Below, in pieces: positions 2,680-62,666 of a stretch of DNA of 64,000 bases. Numbering within the stretch: the stretch's first letter is position 1; each line of letters starts with the position of its first letter. The position numbers and the translations under genes were made by a program. The notes below the pieces were generated by a model that ran no database searches, was not told the origin of the DNA, and worked only from the letters and a program-made list of their open reading frames with translations. This stretch comes from Ectocarpus siliculosus (taxonomy: Eukaryota; Sar; Phaeophyceae; Ectocarpales; Ectocarpaceae). Location of the stretch: contig FN648528.1 in assembly GCA_000310025.1 (NCBI GenBank), forward strand, positions 69,245 to 133,244, read 5' to 3'.

Positions 2680-2920
2680 GCCCCCCTACTCGTATGCATC
2701 GTCATGCTCCGAGAAAAACCAAAATGACCCGTAGTCGACCGTACCACGAAGGCACGCCTTGTCAGCAGTCCTGCTTACTTCAAAACAAAACAAACCATCA
2801 AACCAAATTCCTCTTTACCATCTCTCCAAAACAATCAAGAAAATTCTCAAAACAAACAAAAACCAATATCTTCGCGCCTGGTGTCCTCCGCTGCTTGGCG
2901 GGCTTCCGCTGCTGGGCGGG

Positions 2921-3472
2921 CAGAAAATTCTCAAAACAAACAAAAACCAATATCCTCCGCTACTTGGCGGGCTTCCGCTGCTTGGCGGGCAGAAAATTCT
3001 CAAAACAAACAAAAACCAATATCCTCCGCTACTTGGCGGGCTTCCGCTGCTTGGCAGGCAGAAAATTCTCAAAACAAACAAAAACCAATATCCTCCGCTA
3101 CTTGGCGGGCTTCCGCTGCTTGGCGGGCAGAAAATTCTCAAAATAAACAAAAACCAATATCCTCCGCTACTTGGCGGGCTTCCGCTGCTTGGCGGGCAGA
3201 AAATTCTCAAAACAAACAAAAACCAATATCCTCCGCTACTTGGCGGGCTTCCGCTGCTTGGCAGGCAGAAAATTCTCAAAACAAACAAAAACCAATATCC
3301 TCCGCTACTTGGCGGGCTTCCGCTGCTTGGCGGGCAGAAAATTCTCAAAACAAACAAAAACCAATATCCTCCGCTACTTGGCGGGCTTCCGCTGCTTGGC
3401 GGGCAGAAAATTCTCAAAGCTCAATTCGTCTACTTTCAGTCATACGGAGAGTTGCAGGGTGAGGCACTGCAC
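2921..3472. repeat. 69-base tandem repeat array inside the LTR element
   Basis: The motif CAGAAAATTCTC recurs at 2,921, 2,990, 3,059, 3,128, 3,197, 3,266, 3,335 and 3,404, an exact period of 69 bases with very few differences. Because 69 is a multiple of three, frames stay open on both strands (23 residues per unit). The segment CTTGGCGGGCTTCCGCTGCT in each unit also occurs once near 3,757-3,780, at the beginning of the gag-like segment, so the array probably grew from that site. It is not a CRISPR array because no unique spacers are present. Confidence 0.85.
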
Positions 3473-10042: not shown

Positions 10043-12741
10043 GTGAAGTACGCAGGGTGGCCCGCAGAATGTAAAAAGAGGGCCCGCAGACGTAGACCTT
10101 TGGAGTTCGCGGGTATATCGCATGGCAGACACACCTGCTCCCTGCTGCGGTAGACATACACTCACTCGCGGCAGACAGCGAGATTACGATTTGCTGCGGG
10201 CCCGTGGGCAGAGCAGTATGGATAGGCCCCTACCACACTGGCGGTTCGCCTGCATCGAAGTGCTTGACATTTATGTGGAGAACAGACATGCCATGCCCGA
10301 TTGATGCCCGATGAATCTGTGCCGCCATCACTTGGAGGAGTGCACCGGTGCCATCGTGGGCGGGCGATGCTTGGGTTTTGTGGTCGAGGCATCGGGGAAG
10401 ACTGTTACGGGCAGAAGAGAGGATCGGCGTGGAGGACGACCCGGAGATGTTTGAAGAACGCATAGAACTAGATTTGCAAGCTGTAGAGCAGTGCCTCGCC
10501 GACGTACAAACAATCAACTACGGATCGAGAAGAGGATGACGGCAGGCAGTGCGTGGTAGTGGTAGGCCCGAGTCGTGCATCACATCGTCGCTTACAGCCG
10601 CTCAGGTCCACTCTCGTATAGAGGAACTTCGCTCCTTCTTGTACGCGAACGGAAGCGATGGCGAATACCGGGAAACACAGTACTTGCTGTCGAGAGCGGT
10701 GAATTCGTTCACTCCCATGAAACTCAAGTAGAGCATAGAGCGTCGTAGGGGGGCGAGGGCGAGGTACAGGCAACTCTTACAATAGTGACGTATGGAGGAA
10801 GTAGTGCGGTGAGGCGCTGCCATGGCTTGGTCCTACCATGGCTTGTCGCTGCCGTGGCTTAGCGCAACATTTTGTTTGGACTGCACTGTAGCACTACGGT
10901 ACATAGCTCATTGCCAGCCGGTCGTGTAGGGGGGCAGCAGTTGATAGATTCACACTACGTAGCGGTATGTTTCCCCCCATCAATTGAACCTTGATCATGT
11001 GAGGGTTTTTCTATTAAGCAAACATGTTGGATAACGTTTGAAATCGGGGAAGTTGAGATAATTTGAAGTACAGAGTAGTACTACAACAACAACAACAATG
11101 GGTTTCACGATAACTACGGGTTTAACCTCGCGTGCAAAATGCATATCGTTGACCATTCGACATCTCGGGAGGAGCGTTGCCATGATTACGACTGACTACC
11201 GTGTGCACGTCGATGTAGACCAAAGTATTCGCAGCATGAAGCTTCCGTTGGAAACGCACAGCGGAGATCCGGATGCGGTGGTAGGCTCGTGAGGTTTTCT
11301 TGAGAAGAGCACGACAGAGCAGGTGGATGGGGTCGGAGCTGCAACCACGGTGGACATTAGCAGAGTGGGAAGTCGTGCGTACCCAAGAATTTTGAGAGGT
11401 GCTTCATGGAAGCGTTGCTTTCTTGTACACTACAGAGTGAACATTAGCTGGGGCGCGCTCGACGTTGAAATACGAAGGAAAAATCCGTATTCGGCGACGA
11501 GTGCCTGGTCAAAAGAAGAGTTTGGCCATAAAAGCAGGTGCTCGGATTTAGGCAGTTAACAAGCCTCGAGACTCACGCTAAAAAATAATCTTCCATGTAA
11601 GTGCGGGTGAGACCAACCGACCTTGCCCCATTTCAAACACGACGATCAGGTTTGTCGGGGAACTCCGAACAGATTCAGATTCTCCCATCATCATGCACCG
11701 TTTTGAATCCTGTAGGACCTCGGAGGCCTTCAAGCTCTCGTAGTTTGTGGTGGAGTGAACCCAAGCTTGGACCTCGGCGATTTTCAGTCTTTGACTTTCT
11801 ACGACGTGAAACCAACGGTCACTTTCAACCCTTGCCGCCGCAGCGACAGGGCACTTACAAGCCCGTGGCGCCGGCATGGCCGACGGCCTTGGTCACGTAG
11901 AGCACCACTTCGAAAGAAGCAGGACCTCGGAGGCCTTCAAGCTCTCGCAGTGTGTGATGGCGTGAATATCCGTTTTTTCGGACCGCGTTTGGGGCCGCAA
12001 CTAGCCAACCGCACCCCAAATCAATGTCATGAAGGCAGGTGAAAACCCTGAAGTTGTTTTGCTCGCAGACGTGGCCTTGAGTAAACAATGCGATTCCTCT
12101 CGATTTTGTGCTGCCGCAGTGCTCACATGGCGCGCACATGGGCCGAGTACGACAAATTAATGCGCTAAAATTTATCGGCGAATGAAGCGTTGGAGAAAAC
12201 ATTCCGTCGCTTCGTTTTCAGGGAAGTCCTACACGCCTACACGATATTAGTCTTTTCCGAAAAGCAGGTTCGACTTCGTAGAACTCCAACTGAATAGTTC
12301 GTGAGCCGGGGTTTGAACTGGATTCTCAACGGTCACTTCTGCCAACCCGATTATTGCAAGCTAGACTTTTTGAACTGGCCTGCAATCGCGGAACAAGGAC
12401 GAACATGCCGCCAGTACTGCCGCATTCTACCGCGGTCAAAGCAAGGCCATCCAACTACGGCAGTCGGTCCCGACGCGCACCCTATTTGCGAATTCAGAGA
12501 ACCTGAAGCTCGGTGCCTTCAGACGACACATGTACGTTTTCTTCTTGCGTTGAGGTCGGAGCACGTCCACGATTTTGGTAGTGACGGTACAACAACCGGT
12601 TTTGCAAACGAACGCTCTGGAAAACGACTATTTTCACCGATCGTTTGACCGAACAAATGCTTCGTTGCGCGCCATTTTCCCTCCCATTTCCTCATCAGGT
12701 GTCACAATACTTGAGGCTGGAGTCTTGGAAGTCGCTGAAAG
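10043..12741. other. No confident gene; weak coding-like pieces and a direct repeat
   Basis: A plus-strand stretch at about 10,420-10,540 encodes an acidic, helix-like segment (EDDPEMFEERIELDLQAVEQ), and another follows at about 10,612-10,731. They are in different frames and I found no splice link or family. A 44-base direct repeat beginning AGGACCTCGGAGGCCTTCAA occurs at 11,714 and 11,921. The final 400 bases form the upstream region of the LRR gene; no TATA-like or other promoter motif stood out. Confidence 0.4.
11714..11964. repeat. Direct repeat pair, 207 bases apart
   Basis: 11,714-11,757 and 11,921-11,964 share AGGACCTCGGAGGCCTTCAA and the following CTCTCG(T/C)AGT sequence with few differences. 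Confidence 0.7.
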
Positions 12742-15700
12742 ATGAGGGTTGCCCTGTCCAGGGCACTGTCGGTGCTCGCCCCCCTGGCTGTTGTTCAAGG
12801 TGGGCCAAACGAAACGAGAGCAGTAGGCGGTGAAAAAGGTGCAACCCTTTCGGGGGTTCCTACTCTTCGTCGAGCCACCTATTGAAGGTTGTCGCATAAC
12901 AGGGAAAGTGGTCCAATTGGCAGGTCCCCTATTAAATGTAGGAAAAACAAATTCAAATCCAACTGTCTTGTGATGTATTTGCTGGCTAAAAGTGCCATTG
13001 TGAAGTGCGCACTCGCCTCGTTAAGGTTGTCCTATCAATTTGCTTGAGACACATGAGAAATCATCGAAAGAGGTAACCCCCCCCGAAAGTCTGACTCGAA
13101 GGCTCCGCAACTCGTATCAACACCTCCACACATGTCAGTTCAATTTTTCTACAGTACTCATTCATGTGATGTAGCACCGTAGTTATCGGCAACCCGACCT
13201 TCTATTTCCACATACAGAACAGCATTTGTCACCTGCCCTTCACCCCCTGGCACTGCTCTGAATTTGTTGCAGCCAAAAACTCGTGTCTGGACCCCAACAG
13301 CTCCGACTACCGCTGCGGCGCGGCTATCGTGGCCAAGGAGCAATCGACGCTGTGAGTGCAAATGCCGTTTTGTCCAAGACGGCTGGTCGTTCTTGCACTA
13401 CGGCCTTTTTCGACCCCATACTGCATCGCTCCGCACGCGCCTAATGCAATGCCGTTGAATGGAGGTGCGGGACAGACCATACCGCTCCGGCAGATAGTTA
13501 CACGACCGATCATTGTGCGCCAATATTACGATCTCTCCCCCCGTGTGTGAACTTTGCTCAAATGACCGGCGACCCCTTCCTCTGGTAAAGGAGTCTTGTT
13601 GGCTGTGGTCTTACAGACGATGACTTTGATGATCTGGAAGTCTGCACAACTGTCGGGAGTCAACTCCAGGATCCATCAGTGGAACAACTGTGAGTGAACG
13701 AACTAGCGTACATGTACGATCCATACGATGTGGCAGAAGGAGAGCGTGACGATAGCCTCAGGATCCCGCAAGTAGCTCGGTTGGGATGAAACTCCTGAAG
13801 TTGTGTATAATCTCTTTCGAGTCAAAGCAGGATGCCACTCTGTCGACGGCCCTCTCTACGGGAACTCACGGCGTTTTGACAATCCAATCATCTATCGGCA
13901 TACGTTCGGCGAATGAACTGCGAACTGCAGTGGCTTCGAGCCTTAACCACGCCTGAATCACTTGGTTGGAGGGATATATTGTACGAGTCATGATGTGACG
14001 CGACCGCGAGGCTGGGAGACTCACGACGAATTCGTTCTGTCCGCATGTCCTGGCTCCAAAAAAAAAGGGACCTCTACAACAACACCCTGACCACGCTTCC
14101 GGGGGAGTTTTTTCAATCTTCGACGTCATGGACATCCCTGTGAGTTAAGCTTGATTGTGAGGTGGTGAAGCGAGGTAATCAAATTTGTACTGTTTCCAGC
14201 GCTCCACGGTGAACCGACGAGCTATCGGTCCGTGTCATTGATGACCACATGGGTATGGGTGTCACCATAGCTAACCTTTGTGCTGGTTGTGTGGGTGGGC
14301 GGGAGATGAAACGCTCTTCACGCAGTAGTAGAAATCTCAGCTCCCACTGCTTCCATGTACGTATTGATGAAGGAGATTGTTGGAAACGTGTTGGACGGCA
14401 CACACCTGGACATATCTACGTGCCATTATGCACGATGCGGCTATGGGACTCATCCTGCGTCCGGTGTTTTTGCATCTTCCAAATCCCAGGAACTTCTCCT
14501 ACAACAACCTGACTACACTCCCGGAAGAGGTATTTCAACCATTAACGGCCCTTACAAATCTGTGAGTAGGTCGCAGCCTCACGGAACGTGTTATCGGGGA
14601 CACAACAGAGTGAAAATCTACCTGGTACCAAAGTGTTCCTTTACGTGTCCGTTCGCGATGTCGTCGTTTACCGTGGTACTGTAGGAAGAACATGCTTACT
14701 ACGCAACAACATAGGTGGCGCAGCCAAACTCGTTATTGAGTACCTCCGTGAGCTGGGTTTGACCGTCAACTTGGTACAAAATGGATATCGTGCTCCCCAT
14801 TGTAACCCTACACGGTTGTTTTGCGTTATAGATAGCTCCACTCCGGCTGCTCTCCTGACTGGTAGACAGTCTGAACTGCTGGACTTCGGCCTCAATCATT
14901 CCTCCCGCCGCGTCTCTCGACTGCGTTCGACCTCAGGAACCTCTGGAGCAATCAGCTGACTACGCTTCCGGAAGGGATTTTCCTATCCTTGACGTCCCTG
15001 GAGCGGCTGTGAGTTGGCGGCCTCTCGACATCACCCGCATGCGTGCGTGCGAGGGTGCCATGGGCCATCTCGTGAATAGCGGCTAACGTAGTGATGTGGT
15101 GACCCTCACCTAGTACTCGGTGGCTGGGTGGCACGTCCATGGCTGTTCACGCCATTCAAACAACGCGGGTCCCAGTGAGGCCTGCACGGTGAACAATCCA
15201 GACCTGCTCCCAGTACATTGTGCAACTACGAGGCCGAGACCGCCGTCATTCGCATTCGCTCATTTCGTCCATACCTAGGTACATCTTCGAGAACAAGCTG
15301 ACATCTCTTCCGGAAGGGATTTTTGGATCCTTGGCGTCCCTGACAAATCTGTAAGTCGGTCGCAACTCCACAATTCATGTTTCCTAGAAGGTAAAAAGAT
15401 GTGTCCACACGTGTCGAATGCCGTTGCTAGCACGCTTGTTGAAGGGTCGGTGTGCATCGCGAGCATGTGCATGAAACCCACCTGTGGAGCACGGTGTGTG
15501 GCACATGGAACTGGTGGGTTCACGGACGTCCGTCCAGCCAACGGCATAAAGTCTACGCTAGTGTCAAGCATTGCCATCTCTCCGCCGCTCAGCTCGCCGT
15601 TGATTTCAGTCATATTACTACGTGGCTTGCGCAATCGTTCCCCCTGAATCCTGTCGATTGTTTCGAATTCAGGAGCGTCGGAGCCAACGACCTGGCCACG

Positions 15701-18700
15701 CTTCCGGAAGACATTTTCGAGTCTTTGACGTCCGTGACGCACCTGTGAGTGGTCGGGATGATTCCGTCAAAGCGTGGTTTACAGATGCGCTAGAAATCCA
15801 CGTGGTGACCCGCTGCGTTTTGGTCAAAGCCCAATTTGTTGTCACGTCATACTCGGAGAATGCACGATTAAACGAACAACTGGAACTCCCCCGGCACCAA
15901 AAGGTCAGCCCGAAGCACCTTCAGTAGTAGCACCACGTCACCCTCCCGGTAGAGGAAGCATGGATGTGGATCATTTGCAGGGCAATGTGATTCTTCCCGG
16001 CCCATGATCTACGAGTACTGTGGAAACTTCGCCATACATCCATTCGGGTCATCAGTGTTGACGTGCCGCTTACTCCGCAAACGCCCCCCCCCGCCCAAAT
16101 GAAAAAGGCACATCCAAGACAACCCGCTGCTCACGCTTCCGGAGGGAATATTTCGATCTTTGACGTCCCTGACGACTATGTGAGTAGGTTGCAGCTCCAC
16201 AATAACATGGCCGCGTAAAGCTGCCAGCTAGTGTTTCGCGTAGACACCCTCCGGGGTTGTTAGTGCTCGTTATTGTTGTGTATACCCTCGCCAAACTGTC
16301 GCCGTAGCTGTCCCGGGCGCCGTAGCTATCCCTACATTAGCGGTGGTACACGCCTGGCAGGATTGCACAAGCCACGCTGTTTGCTCACGAGTTCTAACTC
16401 TTGTTACCCGCGTTGGTCGGGTATAAAACGGAATCGCTGGAATCGTAAACCCGACCAATGCAGCTACGGTCTTCCGCTGGAGGAAACCGTCTCGACGACT
16501 GCGGTTACCCAGATTGTGTGATACAACCAATCTGTGACGTCATGGACATCTACCCACGTTGTCAAACATTGCCGCAAGCTGAATATTCTGCCCCTGCCAG
16601 AGTTCACCATCTGAGCACCCTTAAAAAGCTCGCGTGTTCGTTCGCCCGTCGTCCTCTTGATTTCGTGGAAAATGCAGGAGCATCTCGACCACCAGTCTCA
16701 CCACGCTCCCTGAAGGGATTTTCCAATACTTGACGTCCCTTTCAACTCTGTGAGTATGTCATCGCTCAGCACAACGCCCGTTGGTGCCACGCACGGGATG
16801 GGTGTTGCTTTTGAACGCGCTCGACCCCACACGTCAGGAATGCTAGCCAAGTGGCGCTGTTGAGAGCCCCATTGTTGTCACGTCGCATTCGGAGAATTCA
16901 CAGTGGGGCGAAACGTTTCTGCGCCCTAAAACGTAACTGCAGTAATACGCCGCTCACTTCGCACGTTTTCCCATGTCGACTTCCGAGCCAAGCTGGATCC
17001 GAGACAACGACAACCTGAAGACGCTTCCGGAAGGGATTTTTCAATCCTTGACGTCGCTGGCAATTCTGTGAGTGTATCCGTGCTTGGAAGAATACACTTT
17101 GCGGAACCGTCAACATGAGGACACATCGCGAGCTCTTTCCAACATTCAACGTGGCGATTGGTTCGGCTGTCGACATGCCTAGGATTTGCAGATATCTGAC
17201 CAACGACCACAAACCCTTACTGATCATTCAGCCCAACCAAGCTAGCGCCCCCAATATGTCGCTTTTGGCGATTCCTTCCCACCCCCCGGCAAAACACGAA
17301 CAGGAACCTCAGTACCAACAAACTGATGGCGCTTCCGGAAAAGATTTTTCAACATTTGACGTCCCTGGAATATCTGTGAGTACAGGAACGTGTTTCCGGG
17401 ACGATCAAAAGAGTGTCATGATAGATGCACCCTAGGCGGAAAGAGCTGTCGTATCTTGCTGTACTCAGGAGTACTTGACCACGGCTGAACTCGATAGTGG
17501 ATAGCTAAGCGGGTGGCGGTTGGCCCCTCGCGTTGGTCTAACTAGAGGGGGCAGCGCTCGTTGTTACCACGTTGCCAGGGGGAGGCGGCTACATGCGTTC
17601 AAAGCCGCACACCCGAAAAGCCATACAAACTGCGCTGTTTTGAACCACGCACATCTCGCGAGGAACCGGCACACAGTGAGTGGTACAGGTCGTGTTGAAC
17701 GGACAATAGTGGATATCCGTCCGGACTGCGAGCTAATGTCCAAGCTGGTCATATGGGCGAATCATGTGAATAGTCAGCCCTGCCGCTATCTTCCATGTGA
17801 TCCGTAAACTCTCTCCGCAAACGTTTTCCCGGCAAACGTTTTCCGATGTATCCCCTTCCGAGCCAAGCTGGATCCGAAACAACGACCTGACCACGCTTCC
17901 GGAGGGGATTTTTCAATCCTTGACGTCCCTGATAGAAATGTGAGTGCATCCGTGCTTGGAAGAACAAACTTTGTGGAACGTCAACACGAGGCACACCTCG
18001 CGAACTCTTTCCAAGCAGTGACGTTTACGCCGACACGGTAAGTCATCACACGGCATGGTCTATCGTAGAATAGTCTATGAACGGAGAACGTGCAGAACCC
18101 TTTCAATGGCAGATTGGCCGGTGATTGGTTCTCCACGTCCAAGCACACTTGGCCGAACCACATCACTGACAAAATTGATCAAACCATGGGTCCCTCAAAT
18201 CCAGGCTGCATCTGGACGGTTTCGATACTACTCATCGATCTCTGCTCATTCGGCGACTTCGAGCAAAATTCGGCGAAATGTCTGTTAGACTTCTGGCCAA
18301 TATTCTCGCCATCTCACATGTACCTGAAACCTAACGATACCTACCATGATTTTGTTCCCGACGTTGTCTGGTACCGGACCTTCTTCCGAACGCGTTAGTG
18401 ATGGACACTCCTCCATGGCGGTTGTTGTTCTTTGTCATGCTGAAAACACCAAGCCCATTGTTGCTACTCTTGCGTGCGAGCGTGCGATGTAAAGTCCCCA
18501 TCGCCTTTTCCCAACCATGGCCCACGTCGTCGCCCGTGACAGAGACGTCAATGGAAACCCGAATCTGGAGTGCCTGCCTCCAGCACCTGAACCAACGTGA
18601 GGACGGCTGACTGTGAAGACACGTACCTTCCTGTGGATCACTCGCGTATCAAGACCCGAACGTTTTCGCGTATACCAAATCCAACCGAATCTGCATGCAG

Positions 18701-21700
18701 TGTCTGATTAAATTTTCCCCTACGGCCCGCACTCATCGTTTGCCTCCACATAAAGGACTGATGTTATCGGATACACTGGGGCAACAGGCGTGTGCGGTAA
18801 GTGGCGACGGTTGTGGTTCGAAATGGGACATGCGTGTTCTTACAAACGTATTCGTTGCAACGTACATCCCATTGCACAGACGCTCTCACTGTCGATCGAT
18901 CAGTCACCACAAAAGTTTCCTGATTTCCGCGCAATCCTCTCCTCCCTGGAACGCGCTGGAAGGGTCGGGTTCAGAGCGTAGCACTTATTCTTCTTTCACC
19001 CTCGTTTGCATGAGCATCTGGACCAATTGCACACCATCGGGGTAGCGATGAATGATGAATGTGAACGTTCCGATTCGGCAACATGCAACAACGAGCACAC
19101 CTCTCAATGTGGATGGATGAGTTGCCCGCAGGGTGTGAACTCTCGGACGGAACAAGTCCATGTGGCCAAGACCCGGCGTGCTCTCCTGGTCCCGAAGGGT
19201 ACACGTGCGGTGAGAACATCACTGGTGTTGTTCATTGGTCGCACTCTGCCTGTAGGGTCACCGTGAATTAATCGCCCCACTCAAACGTTGAAAACGTTCA
19301 CGCCGTCCATGATTTTCTCTCTGGTACCTGAAGTTTCTGCCTCGCTCTTTATCCGTGGGCAACAGGCAATACATCCCTGGCTTCCCTGGCTCCTACCCCT
19401 TCTCCCGCGCCCGTGCTAGAAGGTGAAGTGCACATGTTGCACACAGTTACGTATCACGTGCGTGAAGTCCCTCTGAAGCCAACCCCCTAACGCCGGCTTT
19501 GTAGGGCTGCGAGGTCAATGGTCTAACGACTACGGCATGCACGACTATAAGTACACCCCAACGCCGCCCTCGAAAGCGTCCTGCCTCGAGCACTGCAACG
19601 ATCCTAGAGAGAAACCGCAAGCCGTTCACCGCCGCAACCCTTGATCAACATTGCCGCGGGTTGGGTGTGTTGCTGGTCATGATACTGTCCTCCGTGCAGC
19701 CCAGACCTTCATGCCACCAGTGTTTAACCGTGCGCGCCTAAACAGCCCAAACGTGCTCCAACGGACTTGCCGGTTACGAGAATTCGGGCGCCTGTTGTTC
19801 AGTTGGCTGCGGCACATGCGGCGGAGAAGGATGTTCGCAGCTCGGCGAAGGTATGGTGTACGTATCCTCGTTCCTCGCAAGGGTTGAGAACTTCTCTTTG
19901 AGTAACATGAAGAACTCTGCGTTGCGCTCTCGATGACGCCATTCGACGCACCACAATCAAGCGATCGCTGTTGTCGTTAAACCTTCTTAGGTGCGGAGTC
20001 GTGCTGCACGTCCAACATCATTGCTGCCCGCGAACCTTGCAGCGAGAAAGGGGCAGCTCCGTGCATCATGGACACCGGTGAGTCATGAGTACCCCTTCCA
20101 CTTTCGGTTGAAACCGCTCCAACACACCGAACTTGCAGGACCCTGTCGCGGAACTGCCAGATGGAAAGCCGTCCCAGGGTAGTGTCCTTTGAACGTAGAA
20201 ACAACCAAGTGCAAGCGGAGACGTCGTAAAATCTCCACTGTTGTCAACGCCACGGTAAGGACCAGTTCCAGAGCCGGAAACTCAACGGGCTTGTTGTTGA
20301 AATAGGTGTCGGTTTTTAGCGCTTTGCTTTCCAGTTCTCCTTGCAAAGTTCTACCGTTTTTGCAGTTCTGTATACGCTGCTTAAGTTTGCAAGAAATCCC
20401 ATGACATGTCATTTCCTGTTTCGACCTTCGTTTCTTTTTTTTGGTTGAACAGATCAAACGTGTTCTAACGGGCTTGCCGGTTTCGAGAATTCGGGCGCCT
20501 GTTGTTCAGTTGGCTGCGGCACATGCGGCGGACAAGGATGTTCGCAGCTCGGCGAAGGTATGGTGTACGTATCGTGTTTTCTCGCGAGCGAGCGGTGACG
20601 ACTTCAAAGTTTTGTCTTCGCCTTGGGTAGCGTGAAGATTCGTGTTCTCGATAACCCCCCGCCGGTGTTTGCCATAGGGGTTGGGTTTCGTCGCTTGGCA
20701 ACGACGTTATCAAACAAGGGGATCTTTTCGTGAGCCCGACAAACAGGTTACCGCTCTTGTTTTCGCCTTCGCTTTTCTTTTGCGGTACAACCATAGTGGT
20801 GGCCGAACAGAAAATGTTGTGCGCGGTCGAGAACCCTCACTACGCGCAAAACGGATGATTGCACCACGTCGTGTCAAGATTGGTCAAGCACCCTCGAGAC
20901 AGTACACTGTGCTTATAACTGTCTCTGAAAGCATGAGCACAATGAAATGTGTTATTATAATAGTCATTCGGAGCTGTCATCCGTATGCGAGGAAGAAAGC
21001 ACAAGATGCCGAACACCATTAGCAGGATGCAGCGCAACCTCCATGCGACGAACACCTCACGGCGCTTCGCGCTTGGGGATGTGAGAGCCGGGTCCTGTGA
21101 GAACCCGGCATGCTCCGTCCCGGCTTCGTAGAGATGAGAAGTCAATGGTGTAACGACTACGGCATGCACGACTATGAGTACGACGAAGGTTCAAACACCG
21201 TCAAGCTACCCTTCCTTGTGTTTGCTAAACTTCTTGCTCAGGTGCGGCATCGTGCTGCACGTCGAACATCATTTCTGCCGGCGAACCTTGCAGCGAGAAA
21301 GGGGCAGCCCCATGCGTCGTGGACCCCGGTGAGTTCATGGGCGTCCCTACATTGCGCTTCAGGTTGAAACGTGAAACTGAACCCTAGCCTGATGGTGAGT
21401 CTCGTAGATCTTCACTTTCCATGCCCCGTCACGCCGGTGGAACTGCCGGCTGAGCAGCCTTGCCAGTGACGTGTAGTTTACCCTCCACCGTTATCAACGC
21501 TAGGGCATGGACCAGTTCCACCCTGGCAGTATCGCCGGCAGTGTTGCCTCCCAGCTGCCCTCGCCAGTCAGAAAATCGACAAGCGGAAGTCACTTATCAT
21601 TCCCTATTTCGCCCGGTTTCCCTGTGTTCCTGTGTTGCTGAACAGCTCAAACGTGCTCCAACGGGCTTGCCGGTTACGAGAGGTCGGGCGCCTGTTGTTC

Positions 21701-21985
21701 AGTTGGCTGTGGTATGTGTGGCGGAGAAGGATGCTCGCAGCTCGCCGAAGGTATGGTGTGCGTGTCGGGGTTTCTCGCGAGCGAGCGTTGACAACTTAAA
21801 AGGTTTTCTTTCTCTTTGGGAAGTTGTGTTGTGTTCTCGATGACGCCACCCGATGAAGGTTTTTAAACACCCTTCTGTTTGCTAAACTTCATACTCAGGT
21901 GCAGAGTCGTGCTGCACGTCCAACATCATAGCTGCCGGCGAACCTTGCAGCGAGAAAGGAGCAGCTCCATGCGTCATGGACCCGG
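12742..21985 (+). CDS. Secreted LRR protein with cysteine-rich repeat modules (multi-exon; last exon unresolved)
   Basis: Twenty-two splice-linked exons were built: 12742-12799, 13273-13351, 13591-13689, 14068-14139, 14490-14561, 14937-15008, 15279-15350, 15673-15744, 16108-16179, 16678-16749, 16993-17067, 17304-17375, 17868-17939, 18543-18596, 18756-18796, 19132-19209, 19746-19850, 19991-20077, 20453-20557, 21242-21328, 21646-21750, 21899-21985. All junctions are AG/GT and in frame (1,708 bases, 569 residues plus one base). The chosen ATG opens a signal peptide (MRVALSRALSVLAPLAVVQ). Then follow a Cys-containing N-cap, ten 24-25-residue LRRs of the type LxxLPEGIFxSLTSLxxL, a C-cap with NPNLECLPP, a short Cys-rich linker, and three A-B pairs of Cys-rich modules. 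The product is probably extracellular or wall-associated and may bind ligands; no membrane segment or kinase is seen. The terminal exon is uncertain: starts near 22,222 or 22,662 would fit the phase but are unsupported. Whether the Cys-rich part belongs to the same transcript rests on phase continuity alone. Confidence 0.75.
14068..17939 (+). repeat. Array of ten phase-2 LRR exons, one repeat per exon
   Basis: Exons at 14068, 14490, 14937, 15279, 15673, 16108, 16678, 16993, 17304 and 17868 are each 72 bases long, except the eighth, which is 75. Each begins with the third base of a codon and ends with the first two bases of the next. Any one can therefore be lost, gained or swapped without changing frame. 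The shared core is ACGCTTCCGGAAGGGATTTT followed by CAATCCTTGACGTCCCTG. Nearly every donor is GTGAGT-like. Exon-level LRR modularity of this kind has been described for Ectocarpus LRR-GTPase (ROCO) genes, but no GTPase domain is visible here. Confidence 0.85.
17060..18015 (+). repeat. Recent exon-plus-intron duplication within the LRR array
   Basis: The LRR exons at 16,993 and 17,868 share not only the exon (CTGGATCCGA..AACGAC) but also upstream intron sequence (CCGAGCCAAG and a preceding TTTTCCCATG/TTTTCCGATG stretch). Downstream intron sequence is shared too: GTGAGTG, ATCCGTGCTTGGAAGAA, then GCGAGCTCTTTCCAA versus GCGAACTCTTTCCAA. Intron similarity shows that a unit of exon and flanking intron was copied. 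Confidence 0.75.
18543..18596 (+). other. LRR C-terminal cap exon
   Basis: The exon encodes DVNGNPNLECLPPAPEP, the typical end of an LRR domain with the NPxLxC motif. It starts in the phase left by the tenth LRR exon and ends in phase 2. This supports 17,868 as the last LRR. Confidence 0.8.
19490..19560 (-). repeat. R1 fragment (5' end only)
   Basis: The sequence GCGAGGTCAATGGTCTAACG and the following ACTACGGCATGCACGACTAT match the start of R1 at 49,690 in reverse orientation. It lies in the intron 19,210-19,745. Confidence 0.7.
19746..21985 (+). repeat. Three alternating pairs of cysteine-rich exons (modules A and B)
   Basis: Module A (105 bases: 19746-19850, 20453-20557, 21646-21750) encodes about 34 residues with the pattern TCSNGLAGYE, then SGACCSVGCGxCGGxGCSQL, eight cysteines in all. 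Module B (87 bases: 19991-20077, 21242-21328, 21899-21985) encodes about 28 residues with ESCCTSNIIAAGEPCSEKGA then APCVMD, four cysteines. Both kinds start with two codon bases and end with one, so they are symmetric and interchangeable. Order is A-B-A-B-A-B. The cysteine spacing suggests disulfide-bonded extracellular domains. I recall similar unnamed repeats in stramenopile predicted proteins but cannot name a family. Confidence 0.8.
20646..21182 (-). repeat. Dispersed repeat R1, near-full copy inside an intron of the LRR gene
   Basis: Read on the minus strand, this block follows the same order as 49,690-50,203. It starts at ATAGTCGTGCATGCCGTAGTCG, continues through GAGAACCCGGC, a CAGTTATAAGCAC region and GAGGGTTCTCGACC, and ends at CGACGAAACCCAACCCC. 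It lies wholly within the intron 20,558-21,241. No ORF or clear terminal inverted repeat is present, so it is likely a non-autonomous element. Confidence 0.7.
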
Positions 21986-22894
21986 GTGAGCTACACACAT
22001 CTACATGTACTCTCGTTCCGTTTGAAATCGAGTCAGGTCAAATATGTTGCTTAAAACTGAAACTATTGTCTTCCACTGTCGCGGTGAATCCATAACCTAG
22101 CGCCGTCTGCTAATGCTTGGTGATGTTGCGACATACTGATAACGACATCAATACGTCTGTCGTTTCCTCTCGTTAAACCCGGATCATGGAAATCAAAGAT
22201 TCGGGCATGTGAGGTCCTGCAGAACAAGGCAGGACGAGAAAGTCAGGGAAGAAACTGCATCAACAAACCCATGCCTCGGTGATCGACGTCTTCAGAATGG
22301 CCTAAGCTGGTTCTTGTTTCTCTGGGGGATAATCCCTCATCTATCAATTTGTCCTACTTTGAATTCTCGAATAAGCACCTGTCAAGCTGTCGGTTTATTA
22401 TTGTGTTGATCATTTGGGCCAACTGCCAATTCTTGCGTAGTGTTGGCGCTTACTGTACGAGAAACTAAACCAGTTTAGTATTGGGGGGAAGAAACGATCA
22501 TCGCAAGTCGTCGTCAAGTACTCAACTCCATGCTGCCGTATTGTTGTGAGAGAGAATCTATTCTGCGAATATGTATGTGAGGTTTTGTGCGTTGCTTCCG
22601 TATTGCCTTGTTTCACGCTATGTCTGGTGAGTTGAACGTGTCGTTGCGAGGGTTTTGCGGCAGTGGTGAGATGCTGTGTACAGCATGTGTGGTTGTCTCT
22701 CTCCACAGTGCTCTCCACGACATTTGTCAATTACAATGCTGTCCGTCGAAGGGGGTATAGACTAAGACACAGCGGCGTGTATTCGTTTTACGGTTGTAGA
22801 AGAAGGAACACACGGTTGTCGTGCAATCATAAGTTCTTGTGCCAATTCTCTCACCGAGACAGACCACGAAGGAGAAACAACGCTGGAAACGGGG

Positions 22895-24689: not shown

Positions 24690-25020
24690 TGCGGATGACA
24701 GGTGCCGATAACTTGATGAATTTTCTGGTGCTTCCTTTCACTTCCAGAGGCAGTCATAAGCGATGTGAAACTATTTAGCGCCTCGAAGGTGTTTGGCCAA
24801 TTGATTACCACGTGGCGCGATCATTACTCTTGCGCGGAGTGAGGGTTCTCGACCCCGTACAACATGCTCTACTCGACCACCATCTTCATGGTACCCGCAA
24901 GAAAACAAAAGGAAAACAACCCGGCAAGCTGGTTCTCGAGCTCACGAAGCGGTCGACTTGTTATTCAATACATCGTCGTTACCAACCGACGAAAACCCTG
25001 GTAGGGGATTTCCGGCGTGA
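24690..25020 (+). repeat. Dispersed repeat R1, partial copy
   Basis: Matches the second half of R1 at 49,860-50,200: GCGGATGACAG, TTTTCTGGTGCTT, CAGTCATAAGC, TTGCGCGGAGTGAGG, CTCTACTCGACCACCA and CGACGAAAACCC occur in the same order. Confidence 0.7.
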
Positions 25021-48100: not shown

Positions 48101-50611
48101 GTATGGTACGCTATTGAAATCACGCCGAGACATGAGGGAAACGTGAAGCGATCACCGCTTCGTGTCGCTCGCTCGCCACCGCCTCAACCGATGGGTCTCC
48201 TCATACCTCGCACAGAACCAGACCAGTCGCGGGGATGTCCGTCTACGTTTCTGTCGCACACCAATCAACTAAACACCCCATCCACCTCAACGTCAACCAC
48301 ACCAGCAGCATCTTACCGCAATCGCAACAACACCACGCAGCAGTAGAAAAACAGCACAACCTCAACAACAGCACAGCCACAGCAGCAGCAGCAGCAAGAC
48401 AGCGCATTCGCAACAATACCACAAGCAAGAGTCAGCCACGCACCCATGGCGAACTGCGGCGCCTTCCATGAGCGGCCGCTGTGGGCTTTGGCCGTCCCGC
48501 CTCCACCGCCGCCCTCGCCGATCGGCGGGGACATGAACCTCGGGGAGGTTGACGACGGCGGCAGCCGAAAGCGGGATGGCGACAGGAAACCGGCGGCGGG
48601 GTCCTGCGAAACAAAGCAACACGCCGCCACACGTGACGACAGCAAACAGTAGTACCGATCGGTTAGCGCAAGCCGGGACAGCGGGTCATGCATTGCAACA
48701 AGAGAAACAGACAATACGGCGGGTATTCAGGGGCTTCCGACAGTTGTACACGTGCCGTAGCAGCGTTCACCGCGAGCAACTTAAGGATGGGTCGCGGGAA
48801 ACCTGACAAAATGTTTCTGTACGAAAACTTATACTGCGAAGAACAGTGAAAACACCCAAGTTGGGGTTAAACGGAAGCACAGGATGTCGAGGTGCGGTCG
48901 GAGTCAACGCACGAAACACTACCCCCCTTCGACCCACTGTCGAACAAAGAATTCCCATTCTCATTCTTTCTCTCTCGCACACACACACACACACCCGCCA
49001 CTAGTTTCAGGCTTCATATCTTTACCGGAGGCACCTGATTGCCTCTGACCTACTGTCTCCCAGCCCAGCTTCGACCCACTAAACAAATCACGGCAACGAT
49101 CAAGAACACCAACACACCTCTCCCCTCGTGGACGTTGACGCGGCGTCATCGTCACAGCCGCCCCCCTTCCCGCTGCCTCGCCCGCCGCCCAAGCTGCTCC
49201 CGCTCGATTCGCCAGAGTCGTGCTGCTGCTGCAGCTGCTGCTGCTGCTGCGCTTGGTTCGACAGCAGCGAGTCGCGGTCATGATCCCGCTCGCCACCCCC
49301 ACTCCCACCCCCGCCGCCCCCGGTCCTCGAAGACCCAACCGATGAGGTCGACATGCGCCGTCCGCCCTTGGGGGACAATCCCTCCGTGAGGTAGTCCAGC
49401 TGCCCGGTTTCTGTTGTTGAGCGTGCCAGGCGCAATGCCAACGGGAAAAAATAAATTACACAGTACAGTAGTGGAAAAGAGAGGGGACAACCCGCCGGTT
49501 CACAAGGCGGTCGGCGGGAGGGGCACGGCAACTAAGGTGGCTGCAAGTGCAATCTAGATCGTGGCGAGCTACGCTTTACGCTCTCATGGACTGAAGGGGG
49601 AGGTTGGGTGCTGTTCGGGTCCTCACTTGAAACATTTATCAGTAAGAGCTTCGGTTCGGTTTGCTCGAGGGGAGGGGGGGGTGTACTGATAGTCGTGCGT
49701 GCCGTAGTCGTTAGACCATTGACCTCGCATCCCTACCAAGCCGGGACGGAGCACGCCGGGTTCTCACCGGACCAGGCTCTCACATCACCAAGCGCGAAGC
49801 ACCGTGAGGTATTCGGCGAGTTGCATGAAGGGTGGTCGGCATCTTGTGCTTACTTCCTTGCGTGCGGATGACAGCTGCGTATGACTTAATTTATTTTCTG
49901 GTGCTTTTACTTCCAGAGCCCAGAGACAGTTATAAGCACTGCTGTGCAACTGCCTCGAGGATGCTTTACCATATTAACACAGCGTGGTGCGCCCATCCCC
50001 CTTGCGCGGAGTGAGGATTATCGACCCCGCACAACATGATCTACTCGACCACCACTATGGTTACCGCCAAAAAAAAAAACAGAGGTAAAAAAAAACAAAA
50101 AACGGTAACCTGGTCGCCGAGTTCACGGCGTGAATTGGCTTGTTTTACAACGTCGTTGCCAAGCGACGAAAACCCAACCCCGATGGCAAACCCCGGCGGC
50201 GGGGCGGGGGGGGGGAGGAAGGGTTTGCTCGAGGGGCGAGGGGTGAAGGGATAATGGCATCGATTCGTCGAAAACGTTGCAGCATAAAATGAAGAGGGCG
50301 GCGTTATCAAACACACAATACAATAAACCAAGCTGAGCAGCCCCGATCGAGGGTGGCAGGAAGCGAGAGGGGGCACAAACTGAACCGGTATGTCTCGGCG
50401 GCAACACCCTCAAGGCTCGATCAAAGCCGTATGTACAAAGGATAAAAGCAGCAGCAGCAGCAGCAGCGTCAAGACAACCACCCAGAAACCGACTCACCCT
50501 CATCCAGGGCGCACCAGCTAAGCTTCTGGCGGTACCTCTCATCCTAAATCGGTGACCATCCGCCGCCCCGTCCAAGTAGCGCATCGAGTACACACGGAGA
50601 GAGAGAGAGAG

Positions 50612-54906: not shown

Positions 54907-57900
54907 TTATTCAGGCCTGCCGGTCCTCCCCCTTCTGTTCCCCGACAGGGGTGTCATGTTCGAGGCAGCAGTTCCCCTGCCCTGATTGGTGCCCCTTTCA
55001 CGATTGGCGCTGCCATCACGGCCGTTCCGCCCCCCACGCGACCCCCCATCGGCGCTGCTTCCTCCTCTCGAGCTCGATCCGCCACCGGCGGCGCTAGCGC
55101 CAGATCCGCTGCCGCCCACGTAGACGACGTCTTGGGAGGCGTTATTGGGGCCTGCTCCTCCGCTGCTGCCATTCTTGCTTTCATCCTGGAGGCGTGTTTA
55201 CGGCCGGGTGAAGACGAGAGACCCGGGAGAATGCCCACCACACGGTCAAAGCTCATACATATCATTAGTAAGTTGATGGGGGTTCATTACTGTTTCTCGG
55301 AAGGGATCCATCCAAACTCAGGTCAGTTCAGTATCCGGCAGGGATCACTCGCCCTTCATCACTACTGCAAAGATTGCAACGAATATGCTCCGGGAAAACC
55401 CTTCGAACCGATAGTCTTTGTGTGATATTCGATGAAGTGTACAACACATTCTAAAGCCGAATACAGCAACAACGTGTTGGAGCGGGAGAACGTGCACAGA
55501 ACGTGATACTACACTTGTATTGCCCGGTTACCTTGCACCAACATGCGTTCGTACAAGAAGTAACCGTGTGGGAAGTGTTCGTGCTACTCACATCGTCAAT
55601 TTCGTCGAGGGCAACCAGGAGGGGGCCGCTCTGAACCTTGCGGCCGATCTCTTCCAGAAATTTCTTGAACACCTCCTGGAAGAAGATAACCTTCTTGTTC
55701 ATGTCTCGCCTCGGATTCCCTGTGAACGTTCGCATCGCCGCATGTTCCTCGTCCCAGACGCTCATAAGGTTTGCACCCAGGGCGATCACGGGAAGGCCAT
55801 AGAAGTGGCTCAACGCGCTGAATTGATTGAACTCAGGCACCTTCGCGAGGATCGAAGGCCAGGTATCGGGTTGGCCGGGCGTGCCGGCCATGCCAGCGAG
55901 GCCCTGGATCTTGTGCATGTCCTGGCTGATTTCACGTAGCTGGCTTTCGATTCGAGTCATCCAGTATCTGAAGTTCTTTGCCGGCTTGCTCCTGATGTGC
56001 GTGTACCTGTTGACCGAAATTCCCAGAATGCGAGGGTTATCCTTTGGAATCTGCACGTCTCGAGCCAGCCCGGCGTGGCTGGCCGTATTGCGGGCGTTGA
56101 ACCGCGTGGTGACCCAGTCTGCCATGATGAAGGGAAGAGCCTTGATGGCGTTGTGGCAGTACGTGTCCGGCGTGCACGGCAGGAAGAGGTAGTCGGACGT
56201 CAGGATGATGTGCATGTTGAGCTTGCCCCTGTGGGGATTGCAGTCGACGAGGACGATGTCTGCCCCGCAACTGCGCGCGGTCAACGCCATGAGCTTATTC
56301 CATGCACCGGGAGCTATTGCCTCGACCAGGAGGTTGGTCCCGTAGGCGACCGTGACTTTTTGCTCGTAGTCAACCAGACCCTCGTGTCCGGGTAGGAGAA
56401 ATAGCCCCCCTTGGCAGCCTTCAGGCAACGGAATCTTGGTGACGTCAGCTGGACCCCACTGCACCATTGGACTATCGCTGCCAGCAGGCTCAAGAACCGG
56501 ACGCAAAGCGTCTTTGATGTTGTTCTTCATGTTTGGGCGGCCCGGCACCTGAAGAACTCGTCCGAACGACGTCGACGGGGTACGTGGGAGGGGCGTCAGT
56601 TTCTGCTCGGTACAAAAACATGCTCCGCTGGCGAAAAGCGGCAGTGTCGGCGGAGAAGGCTTGTTTGCCACGCTTCACGTTGGCATGATGGCAGATGCAT
56701 GTTGGAAATTTAGACCGACGTGGTGTTCAAGCTTTGTTGGCTGCTGGATGGATGTTGCGGGAGTCATCCCAACATGGTCCTCTTTCACTCAAACAGCGTA
56801 AAACGTCGTGGCTTTCCAAGAAATCTAGCTTCCCGCTGCAACTGTTTAACGGGGATACCAATCCACAAAGACAAGCCCAAGAAAAATATCCAGTCTACGA
56901 GACCTGAGAGGGGCATGCGTCATGCATCGTCTCGTACGGGGTTGATCAACGCGGGATACGAAGGAAAGAAGCCCTTGACAGAGTTCTGAGCGTGTTTCGG
57001 TGAAAACCGTGACAAAAACAACACCAACAGCGACAACGATGTCAAAGAAGATACAAACGCATAAACTTCAAGCTCATCACCTCCCCCCTCTGTCGGTTCT
57101 GTTAAATACTGCGAGGAGACGTTCTTTCGCACAAATTGGCATGCTTCCTCCGAGGAGTCACAGTGGCAGGGGAGGAATGGTCACGTTGTTAATTCATGAT
57201 TCTCGCAGCTGACCCACATCATGCCGAAAGCTGCACGGCCGCAACTCTCTGCGATACCGCACACCGCATTCGACGCCACACGCCACACCAAGAGTTATTT
57301 TCGCGGCTGGAGGTGGGTCGCATAGTACGGCCCTGTGGTATTGTAGTGTCATACCAACGCCCTCCACAAGCACCGTACCATACATCAGGCGCTACTGCTG
57401 TAGTGTCCCACCGGGGCACGTTATCAATTCATCCTGTTTGTGGTGTTTTCCGAGATTGTTTGGTATGTACCGCGTACCACAGGCGGCAATCCTGCGGCGC
57501 GCAGTCTCTCTCTCTCTACCCCCATTCACTCGGAGATATGAGTGAAGATTCTCTTCGCCGTTCATTAGACTATTATGGTATGGTCTAAGGACCGTACGCA
57601 CATGCAATCGTGGTCGTGGACGGCGGGGAGCCTCGCGTATAGTTCGCCGCCACCAAAGTTAGCTGCTGTAACCCAACAGCAAGCGCAAGCACGCACCTAC
57701 CTGGTGATTGAAGAAGAGGTCGTAATTTTCCTCGCCGGCCTCTGTTTCCTCGGATGTCTGCTTATTCTTCACCCATTCTTTCAAGAGCAGGTAGGAAAGG
57801 TCGCACTGTGGGTCCGCGTCTACCAGGAGGACACGCTTCCCCTTCAAGGCAAGGGTGAAGCCGAGGGAATGAGTGGTGGTGGTCTTCGCGACGCCTCCCT

Positions 57901-60511: not shown

Positions 60512-62182
60512 TTACACTCCTAGGAGCAAGAGGCGGTTCCTTAGAAACTTCACCGCACCCAAACTCTTTGTAAGAATGTCAGCTTTCTGCGCGTCAGACT
60601 CAAGGTACTCCACTGCGACTACCTTGTCTTCGATAAGCGACCTTACTTGATGATACTTGATGTCAACGTGCTTCGTACGCGGCGTGATCTTGTTGTTTAC
60701 ACTAGTCGAGATCGCGCCAGTGTTGTCCTCGAACATCCTCGTCGCCTCCTCTTGCATCTGGTTGATGGTGCTCAGAAGGTGACGGTAGTGGATGATCATC
60801 GTACATGCCTTGGACATCGCGACATATTCTGCTTCCACCGAGGAGAAGGCCACCACCGTTTCCTTAACTGACCTCCAGTCCACCGGTCCACCTGCCAGAA
60901 ACAAAACAACGCCTGTAGTCGAGCGACGGTCATCTCCATCGCCTGCAAAGTCGGAATCAACATATGCTGTCAGTAGGTTTCCTTGTTCAGCGTCTTCCCT
61001 GTACATTATCCCAATGGAGCTCGTTCCTTTCAGGTACCGGAGCGGTCGCTTCAGTTTGGCCATCGCCTTCGGGCCTGGTTTGGCCATGCTCCTGGTAAGC
61101 ACCAACACCGTGTGGGCGATCTCCGGCCTCGATCCCCTGCATAGGTAAAGAACCGAACCCGTGGCTGATCTGAACATCGTGGTGTCCTCTGGCGACAGTG
61201 CTTCTTCCTCCACGACACTTATCGTGCCAACCTCAGCCGGAGTCTTCGTCGGATGCGAGTCGGCCATTCCAAACTTAGCTAGCACCGCCTTGGTGTACAC
61301 TTCCTGCGTCAAGCGAATCGTTCCTGCTTGAACGTTGCGATCAACGGCCATTCCTAGGATAAACCTCGCATCCCCGAGGTCCACCGTATCAAAGCGTTCC
61401 TTCAGCTGTTCGATGATCGTCGACACTTGATTCTTTTCGGTTCCAGTGAACAGGATGTTATCCACGTAAACTAGGAGAATTACTTCGCCCGCGTTCAAGA
61501 TGTACAGACACGGATCCGCCGTGCTTTGCACGAATCCGATCTCCAGCAAATACAACACGTGAAATGTCCCGTTCCATCCCTTCGGAGATAGACGTAAACC
61601 GTACAGCCATGCCTTGAGTTTCCAGACCTGTTTAGCTTGTTGCGACGAGCACTCGAACCCCTTTGGAGGTATGACGTAGATGGGTTCCGCATCTTCGGGA
61701 ATTCTGGCATGCAGGAAAGCCGTCTTGATGTCAGCTTGCTTGAGAACTAGACCGTGGTGAGCAGCAACAGCAATCAACAGATGCACAGATTCCATAGACG
61801 CCACTGGCGCTGCCTTGTCCTTTCCCGTATCGGCTTCATGAAATCCTTGTACCACTACACGACTCTTCGGGCGAACCGGCACACCATCTTGGTTGTATTT
61901 CCATTTATAGATGAACTTAGACGGAATCAGTTGAACACCCTGGGGCGGGTCAACCCAGTCAAACACGTCATGCTCGTACAGCGACTGTCCTTCGTCGCTC
62001 ATGCTTGCTTGCCAACGTTTTGAGTCTAGTCCGCTTATCGCTTCGTTATAGTTGGTGTTAGGATGATCCGAACTGGGGGTAGCTTGTCGCAAGACGTGTG
62101 TTGAATAGGGTGTCGGCAACTCGGCGAACTCGCGCCAAGGAGGAAAGATGTGCTGGGCTTGTTGTATAGACTTCTTCTTCAC
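60512..62182 (-). mobile_element. Ty1/copia retrotransposon remnant (pol 3' part)
   Basis: A minus-strand frame of about 556 codons carries the reverse transcriptase and RNase H regions of a copia-type polyprotein. Signs include WKYNQDGVPVRPKSRVVVQG, QADIKTAFLHA and TKHVDIKYH. The segment covers only the 3' part of pol; I saw neither gag/integrase nor LTRs in the window. The coding stretch is well preserved, suggesting a fairly recent insertion, but the element as present is incomplete and should be treated as a fossil. Confidence 0.9.
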
Positions 62183-62666
62183 ATGAAAAACATGGACTCA
62201 CATGAACACATGAACACATGAACACATGGACACATGGACAGACATGAACTGCACGCACGCGTGCACGCACCACCATGAGGGGGCGACGCAGTATACAACA
62301 GGGGTACCTTGCACACCCTGGAAATACATTCCACGTACCACACAATCCTACAACCACTTGGCATTGCTACAAGTATATCTATCAGCCCCCCTGCTTGTGA
62401 CCATGCCATGTCTTTTTCGATCCTCAAGAACTCCAAAACACAAGAAAATAAACTCAGAAACTCAACTCAACTCCAGAACAATAGCCTCACTGGCTAGACA
62501 TCAATACCCATCCCCGGTCAAATCAGATATAATTTTTCGATCTTCAGTGAACTAATTGCCCCCCAGCCTAGAACACCATCCATTGAGAAAAACCATAGGC
62601 AAAAATGCAAAATATTGCCACCCTAGTTGTTTGATCGCACACAAAATAAACCCAAACATAAAAATA
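62183..62666. other. Spacer between two copia remnants
   Basis: Starts with a short tandem run of ACATGAACAC-type units near 62,190-62,245. Nothing else was identified. Confidence 0.5.

Follow-up and report, generated by a model that had tools for sequence, protein, structure and literature searches.

A probable relative of the Ectocarpus LRR receptor kinases, without the kinase and with a cassette of cysteine-rich exons

Exon structure of the gene

To which family does a gene belong in which exons encoding single leucine-rich repeats (LRRs) are followed by cysteine-rich exons? Such a gene, with a link to the ROCO genes of Ectocarpus, was proposed in the original prediction for the stretch of 64,000 nucleotides analysed here (the window, located on contig C99), and its presence in the sequence was confirmed. 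A model of 22 exons on the forward strand, at 12,742-21,985, gave an open joined frame of 569 codons (1,708 nt). A GT donor was found at all 22 exons and an AG acceptor at 21 of the 22, exon 1 being the start exon. In Pfam the joined protein matched LRR_8 (E 1.9e-42); the best sequence match of the gene was SHOC-2, and lamprey VLR entries were among the matches.

The order of the exons is signal peptide, N-cap, 11 LRR-type exons, C-cap, linkers and three A+B pairs of cysteine-rich exons. Exon 1 (12,742-12,799, phase 0-1) contains the start codon and the signal-peptide-like sequence MRVALSRALSVLAPLAVVQ, and its hydrophobic core score of 2.52 agrees with the predicted secreted start. The N-cap exon (13,273-13,351; NSCLDP..DYRC) converts phase 1 to phase 2. 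It is followed by a divergent first LRR-type exon, L0 (13,591-13,689; 99 nt, 2-2), to which a similar block was seen by eye on contigs C475 and C14. Ten regular LRR exons come next, all of phase 2-2 as predicted. Eight of them were placed by the gene model and the LRR profile: L1 (14,068-14,139), L2 (14,490-14,561), L3 (14,937-15,008), L4 (15,279-15,350), L5 (15,673-15,744), L6 (16,108-16,179), L7 (16,678-16,749) and L9 (17,304-17,375). The other two, L8 (16,993-17,067) and L10 (17,868-17,939), are recent duplicates with a common intron flank. L8 has 75 nt and the remaining nine exons 72 nt. Against a profile built from themselves, L1-L10 scored 43-55 bits; the best match elsewhere in the window (both strands, outside 12,700-22,100) scored 8.3 bits.

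The C-cap exon (18,543-18,596; NGNPNLECLPP) is again 2-2. Both linker exons had been described as phase converters, which was true of linker exon 1 (18,756-18,796, phase 2 to 1) but not of linker exon 2 (19,132-19,209; CELSDGTSPCGQDPACSPGPEGYTC), which is 1-1; the other converter is the N-cap exon. The six cysteine-rich exons are all 1-1, namely A1 (19,746-19,850), A2 (20,453-20,557) and A3 (21,646-21,750), of 105 nt each, and B1 (19,991-20,077), B2 (21,242-21,328) and B3 (21,899-21,985), of 87 nt each. The gene does consist of two exon blocks with a phase class each; since one phase throughout a block is expected from tandem exon duplication, this is not surprising in itself.

The certain model stops at B3. 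Reading through to a stop codon (21,986-22,095; 36 residues including the split codon) would give an unspliced end, which was not favoured over a further spliced exon; the candidates for the latter were weak, such as the one at 22,296, and were selected by likeness to the tails on C14, C12 and C21 and by hydrophobic or Pro/Thr/Ser-rich ends. Most of the 684-nt intron between A2 and B2 is occupied by an interspersed repeat (20,781-21,190). The end of this element occurs 2,749 times genome-wide within 3 mismatches, and copies were found in introns adjoining cysteine-rich modules in the window and on C475 and C21. Shuffling driven by this repeat was considered, but at about 1 copy per 69 kb some 3 copies are expected in the 230 kb read; the 7 matches obtained, which include the query and fragments, were not counted as evidence.

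Ectodomain exons at receptor kinase loci

The ROCO link was examined through the GTPase and through the LRR exons. The ROC domain had 54 matches in the genome and the COR domain one; neither had a match on C99, in agreement with the predicted lack of a GTPase. The single-LRR exons of 72 nt and phase 2 are common to the published ROCO genes (PMC11378527). However, the same format was found at LRR receptor kinase loci elsewhere in the 189-Mb genome and is hence not diagnostic. Fifty-nine LRR matches above 15 bits were obtained in the stretches read, of which three on C14, including a multi-LRR exon, were set aside; 53 of the remaining 56 had the AG/72 nt/GT, 2-2 format. At one ROC locus the LRR profile had no match in the 4.8 kb upstream. 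ROCO LRR exons were compared by their published description, and descent of the gene from a ROCO gene or a ROCO-derived LRR array was rejected as very improbable, given contig C99 without ROC or COR and a signal peptide, caps and linker that resemble those of receptor kinases.

The evidence for the latter resemblance came from the linker. The linker exon of the kinase type had 15 matches in the genome. At 10 of them a match to a conserved receptor tail block followed on the same strand, at a distance of about 1-7 kb to the 3' side, so that an exon like that at 19,132 is followed by the receptor tail, and at nine of these 10 loci LRR exons were present on the 5' side. At the C15 locus, the only one at which kinase exons were read through, a stalk, a transmembrane-like stretch and the tail lie in one frame, and the kinase exons matched PF07714 (E 7.8e-23 and 2.9e-14). 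By eye, an N exon of phase 1-2 was seen on C16 and C475 and a cap exon of phase 2-2 on C16, and linker exon 2 was 1-1 in all seven copies inspected. The N exon at C16:6727k was seen by reading, and the N-exon search did not return it. Among the 15 LRR clusters outside the window (the grouping is ours), six had no tail-block match.

Linker exon 2 of the window matches exons adjoining other LRR arrays, but it is short and the likeness is weak by score. Its best matches elsewhere, on C21 and C475 (E 5.0e-4 to 1.0e-3), are at loci without a tail-block match, the kinase-type loci reached E 0.007-0.04 only, and the reverse search with the kinase-type linker exon (E up to 10) returned neither the window's linker exon nor that on C14.

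At LRR receptor kinase loci elsewhere in the genome, the N-cap, LRR, cap and linker exons share type and phase with those of the window gene, so that a relative of receptor kinases is a better classification for it than a ROCO gene. Its signal peptide, N-cap, LRRs and C-cap correspond to the ectodomain of such a kinase, the N-cap, the cap and the phases being judged by eye. A transmembrane helix with a kinase was not found: C99 had no tail-block match up to E 0.001, the 64-kb window had no HRD-type kinase loop, its only two DFG-type strings being those at 12,565 and 14,876, and a kinase domain was absent from the eight open reading frames run through Pfam. A complete receptor kinase with its membrane and kinase exons further downstream would account for the final exon having only weak candidates. 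These searches, together with a best tblastn match of the receptor tail to the window of E 3.2, make it a distant prospect.

From the sequence, the gene is probably (about two chances in three) related to the LRR receptor kinases of this brown alga but without a kinase, a cysteine-rich cassette taking the place of the kinase half. The best reading is that exon shuffling across a phase-1 seam gave rise to it and that the product is secreted or wall-bound. The outer half, from the signal peptide through the single-LRR exons and the C-cap to linker exon 2, is of the receptor kinase type, with the seam at the phase-1 border on the 3' side of that linker. Beyond this border the kinase read on C15 has a Ser/Thr/Pro stalk, a transmembrane stretch, the tail block and the kinase domain. 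In the window gene a cysteine-rich domain is found there in three copies of two exons each, and it comes from a large family of its own with 1-1 exons.

Cysteine-rich modules and codon variability

The cysteine-rich domain had 150 matches in the genome, six of them in the window. Among 34 A-type exons examined elsewhere, the acceptor phase could be called in 29 and was 1 in 27 of these; the donor phase could be called in 26 and was 1 in all of them. The modules of the window, with a cysteine-rich A+B block and phase-1 borders, belong to this large family, the exons of which are mostly 1-1. In most of the copies read, A and B share one exon; the window copies are split, and two A-only exons were seen on C21. 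The cysteine-rich part had no Pfam match (E up to 1) and no PDB match (E up to 10).

A second gene with the LRR, linker and cysteine-rich order was found on C14, comprising a signal peptide, L0, LRRs, a 1-1 linker exon and a cysteine-rich exon. This order, and the phases, which fit, argue against two adjoining genes in the window, that is, an LRR gene that stops with linker exon 2 or beyond it and, next to it, a cysteine-rich gene of its own. The 536-nt intron between the two parts does contain a repeat fragment, a marginal hydrophobic start and a possible phase-1 donor at 19,309. However, the score of this start is 1.46, well short of the 2.52 of the true start exon and of the 2.28 obtained with the start on C14, and the corresponding gap on C14 scores at best 1.5. 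Two genes are accordingly improbable.

Variability was concentrated on the ligand face of the LRRs, as the proposed diversification would have it. No other part of the window's LRR exons varied as much as these codons, and they were likewise the most variable in the kinase arrays of C15 and C33 (0.42 vs 0.17 in introns). For the concave codons of the window gene, pN/pS was 1.30 (bootstrap 0.99-1.82), which is not clearly above 1; over 53 exons it was 1.0, because pS was raised there too, and it exceeded 1 in five of eight arrays. In view of this raised pS, positive selection on the concave codons was not retained, and the ligand-face codons are described as hypervariable.

The cysteine-rich exons look conserved, with pN/pS of 0.27 and 0.23. 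The introns around the A and B exons have largely diverged, while the exons keep a low pN/pS. This, and 22 open exons of 22 with consensus-type sites, make it doubtful that the locus is a pseudogene or a silent reservoir of unexpressed exons feeding other LRR genes, a role suggested for LRR-only loci in PMC11378527.

By eye, WSC-like sequence accompanies the cysteine-rich domain in genes on C21, C5 and C15, and for this reason attachment to the wall is considered. The same observation would suit a structural protein of the wall or matrix, with LRR and cysteine-rich modules serving adhesion or wall assembly and not the recognition of strangers. The C14 relative may also end in a stalk and a hydrophobic GPI-like tail, if these are part of the same gene. 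The variable ligand face, in the window and in the C15 and C33 kinase arrays, speaks against a structural role, which is unlikely, although it is the most serious of the alternatives. If the gene is a kinase-less receptor relative, its protein would be secreted, the LRR arc would bind a ligand through the variable concave face, and the cysteine-rich tail may anchor the protein in the cell wall or matrix. Alternatively, the tail may allow the protein to act in soluble form, as a co-receptor of the receptor kinases or as a decoy. An immune role is proposed.

Comparison with known systems

A ROCO-like exon format is now seen in receptor kinase loci and in kinase-less relatives of the secreted type, and the seam where one half could be exchanged for the other can be named. 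Tentatively, surface recognition in brown algae may rest on one diversifying LRR ectodomain of swappable 72-nt exons that is joined, always at the same phase-1 seam, to one of several halves. These would be the kinase (10 linker-plus-tail loci, with the kinase read at one), cysteine-rich wall modules in a C-terminal (window, C14) or perhaps an N-terminal position (C475), and another cysteine-rich tail (C21). Ligands would then be shared by the soluble and the kinase versions, and exon content would vary between individuals.

The gene varies a known theme, one repeat per exon. Among candidate immune receptors of brown algae, exon shuffling has been published for ROCO and NB-ARC-TPR proteins. 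The brown algal ROCO genes in which LRR exons are shuffled (Teng et al. 2024, PMC11378527) share with the window gene one LRR per 72-nt phase-2 exon and variable concave positions; their proteins carry a ROC-COR GTPase, whereas none was found in the window gene. The combination was thought possibly undescribed in the original prediction. This holds only as far as the open-licence literature searched. The main text of PMC11378527 never uses the terms "receptor kinase", "signal peptide" or "cysteine"; genes other than ROCO in which LRR exons have 72 nt are already published there.

Lamprey VLRs resemble the window gene in a secreted or anchored LRR arc with a variable concave face, a likeness of LRRs in general. 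VLRs are somatically assembled, and in the one assembly used the window gene gave no sign of this.

The LRR receptor kinases of Ectocarpus, of which two were counted by Dievart et al. 2011 (PMC3268121, the main text of which never mentions exon, intron or cysteine), have a similar LRR ectodomain of the secreted type. The window gene differs from them in its cysteine-rich cassette and in that a stalk, transmembrane stretch, tail block and kinase were not found. Plant LRR receptor-like proteins likewise have an LRR ectodomain of the receptor kinase type without the kinase. A transmembrane helix is usually kept in those proteins, whereas the window gene has the cysteine-rich cassette and no clear transmembrane segment. 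With the seam named, it becomes testable whether brown algae evolved a parallel to the land plant system of receptor kinases and receptor-like proteins.

Exon structure of the window gene

The gene model was derived from splice borders after direct reading of the window sequence. It spanned positions 12,742-21,985 of the forward strand and comprised 22 exons and 21 introns (140-684 nt); the joined exons stayed open over 1,708 nt. Exon 1 encoded a signal-peptide-like stretch, and exon 2 (13,273) was entered in phase 1 and left in phase 2. Next came eleven LRR-type exons, each of phase 2-2, namely a divergent one of 99 nt (13,591-13,689) and ten regular exons of 72 nt, or in one case 75 nt, and then a cap exon, also of phase 2-2. 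Behind the cap lay two linker exons (18,756 and 19,132), and the model closed with three pairs of Cys-rich exons (A, 105 nt; B, 87 nt), all six of phase 1-1. In this model, the anatomy of two exon phase classes described in the original prediction was right in substance. Both linker exons had been regarded as phase converters; this held for 18,756-18,796 (phase 2-1) but not for 19,132-19,209, which was of phase 1-1.

The ten regular LRR exons scored 43-55 bits against a profile built from themselves, and no score above 8.3 bits was obtained in the window outside 12,700-22,100. The eighth and tenth of them have an intron flank in common and stem from a recent duplication. When the joined protein was searched against Pfam (E up to 1), LRR families were found (LRR_8, E 1.9e-42), and a Sec20 match within the LRR part (E 0.15) was at chance level. 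The Cys-rich part had no match in Pfam (E up to 1) or in PDB (E up to 10).

The best hydrophobic start between the second linker exon and the first Cys-rich exon (19,746-19,850) scored 1.46; the true start exon scored 2.52, and its counterpart in a related gene on contig C14 scored 2.28. A single gene for the LRR and Cys-rich parts is favoured without being proven. In the C14 relative (750-758 kb), a signal-peptide exon with a phase-1 end came first; a block like the divergent LRR exon followed, then LRRs (several in a single exon), then a linker of phase 1-1, and lastly a Cys exon bordered in phase 1 on both sides, the last donor being read by eye. Farther along C14, a frame of APTPAPTT type was found, and another that contains Cys and has a hydrophobic GPI-like end; we infer both to be part of the same gene. 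On contig C475, a Cys exon lay ahead of the N exon (the N-cap exon) with matching phases, possibly representing the same modules in changed order. This Cys exon possibly forms a separate gene; however, a hydrophobic start was located just before it, and none equally strong was present between it and the N exon.

Other features of the window were an interspersed repeat, present whole or in part at four places (20781-21190, 19493-19554, 24782-24882 and 49683-50067), the end of which had 2,749 genome copies within 3 mismatches, and a tandem repeat whose unit measured some 23 codons, recognised by eye (2815-3420; several open frames on both strands). On the reverse strand were a Copia-type reverse transcriptase (60512-62197; RVT_2, E 4.6e-50), a frame that was retroelement-like by eye and had no Pfam match (62667-63248), and a 407-residue frame (55451-56674) with a weak AAA_31 match below the cut-off (E 1.4e-4), ParA-like by eye and unexpected for an algal contig.

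Variability of LRR exons and conservation of Cys-rich exons

The genome searched (189 Mb, 492 contigs) carried many LRR exons of this kind. A single 24-residue LRR query gave 48 matches, 4 of them inside the window, and so missed 6 of the 10 regular LRR exons of the window gene. In the genome stretches read, 59 LRR matches exceeded 15 bits. After the 3 on C14 were set aside, 53 of 56 had the form AG|72 nt|GT in phase 2-2, and the remaining 3 had another acceptor or another length; since the profile was built from window exons, LRR exons of other types escape this count.

For the ten regular window exons, pN/pS was 1.30 at the ligand-face codons (2, 4, 5 and 7; bootstrap 0.99-1.82) and 0.46 at the other codons (0.31-0.71). 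In nine units of recently duplicated arrays on C15 and C33, positions 1+2 of ligand-face codons differed by 0.42 per pair, compared with 0.17 in the flanking introns (5' side 0.08, 3' side 0.26; Mann-Whitney p 0.0016, with non-independent sites and units). For the 53 exons pooled, pN and pS were both about 0.61-0.62 at ligand-face codons, and 5 of 8 arrays had pN above pS there. It can safely be stated that these codons are hypervariable, whether through selection, through conversion of the rest of the sequence, or through both.

The Cys exons of the window gene had pN/pS of 0.27 (A) and 0.23 (B), and their introns were largely diverged; thus, they behave as conserved coding sequence. A 65-residue Cys query had at least 150 genome matches (150 of 197 candidates were scored), 6 inside the window. 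These were often tandem, as in the arrays at C4:5,401-5,437k, C207:19-36k and C229:40-47k, and the large family has no Pfam name. Outside the window, 34 A-type exons were examined, among them exons of the C4 and C207 arrays; phase-1 acceptors were found in 27 of 29 callable cases and phase-1 donors in 26 of 26, with tandem copies not independent and acceptors picked by a simple rule. A and B formed one exon in most copies read and were split in the window gene; two exons on C21 consisted of A alone, with a phase-1 end. WSC-like sequence, recognised by eye, adjoined the Cys domain in genes on C21, C5 and C15.

Linker exon at loci of receptor-kinase type

At C15:5,222-5,233k, an LRR array was followed by a linker exon resembling 19,132 and then, in a single open frame, by a Ser/Thr/Pro-rich stalk, a stretch resembling a transmembrane segment and a conserved tail block. 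Kinase exons (PF07714, E 7.8e-23 and 2.9e-14) lay beyond; these were read at this locus only. The tail block had 17 genome matches, 15 of them strong and none of the 17 on the window's contig. The 15 strong matches outnumber the LRR receptor kinases of a 2011 count in Ectocarpus, which gave 2 (PMC3268121).

The kinase-type linker exon had 15 genome matches (E up to 10), of which 10 had a same-strand tail block about 1-7 kb further 3'; at 9 of these 10 loci, LRR exons lay on the side opposite the tail block. At the same threshold, 5 of the 15 strong tail blocks had no linker match. By our grouping, 6 of 15 LRR clusters outside the window lacked a match to the tail block (C15:1.59M, two on C21, and those on C14, C475 and C3). 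On C21 (2,343-2,347.5k), LRR exons and a linker exon preceded a different Cys-rich block, with no tail-block match. An N exon like that of the window gene (NSCLDP..DYRC) could be read at C16, as could the cap exon, and a looser version at C475; both N exons changed phase from 1 to 2. The linker exon was of phase 1-1 in all 7 copies examined, including that of the window.

With the window linker as the query, the best matches elsewhere were on C21 and C475 (E 5.0e-4 to 1.0e-3), neither of which matched the tail block. With this short exon, the kinase-type loci (C33, C15 and C16) reached only E 0.007-0.04. In the reverse search with the kinase-type linker (E up to 10), neither the window nor C14 was among the matches. 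By these sequence comparisons, the nearest kin of the window gene may therefore be other kinase-less LRR genes.

Proposed role and relation to published LRR genes

Most likely, the LRR arc would be secreted with a variable binding face, the conserved Cys-rich tail would hold it in or near the wall, and the protein would act beside receptor kinases resembling its outer half. The phase-1 intron 3' of the second linker exon would be the exchange point between the alternative halves; the exons are too short for kinase loss here to be distinguished from kinase gain there.

For ROCO (ROC-COR GTPase) genes, one study describes 72-nt phase-2 exons with one LRR each, their shuffling and selection at concave sites; from Saccharina it adds 15 sequences with LRR exons outside the ROCO genes, most with LRRs only (PMC11378527). 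Two Ectocarpus LRR receptor kinases have been published in an article whose main text does not contain the word exon (PMC3268121). No description of the combination of LRRs, linker and Cys modules was found in searches of open-licence literature, subscription papers being largely outside their scope.
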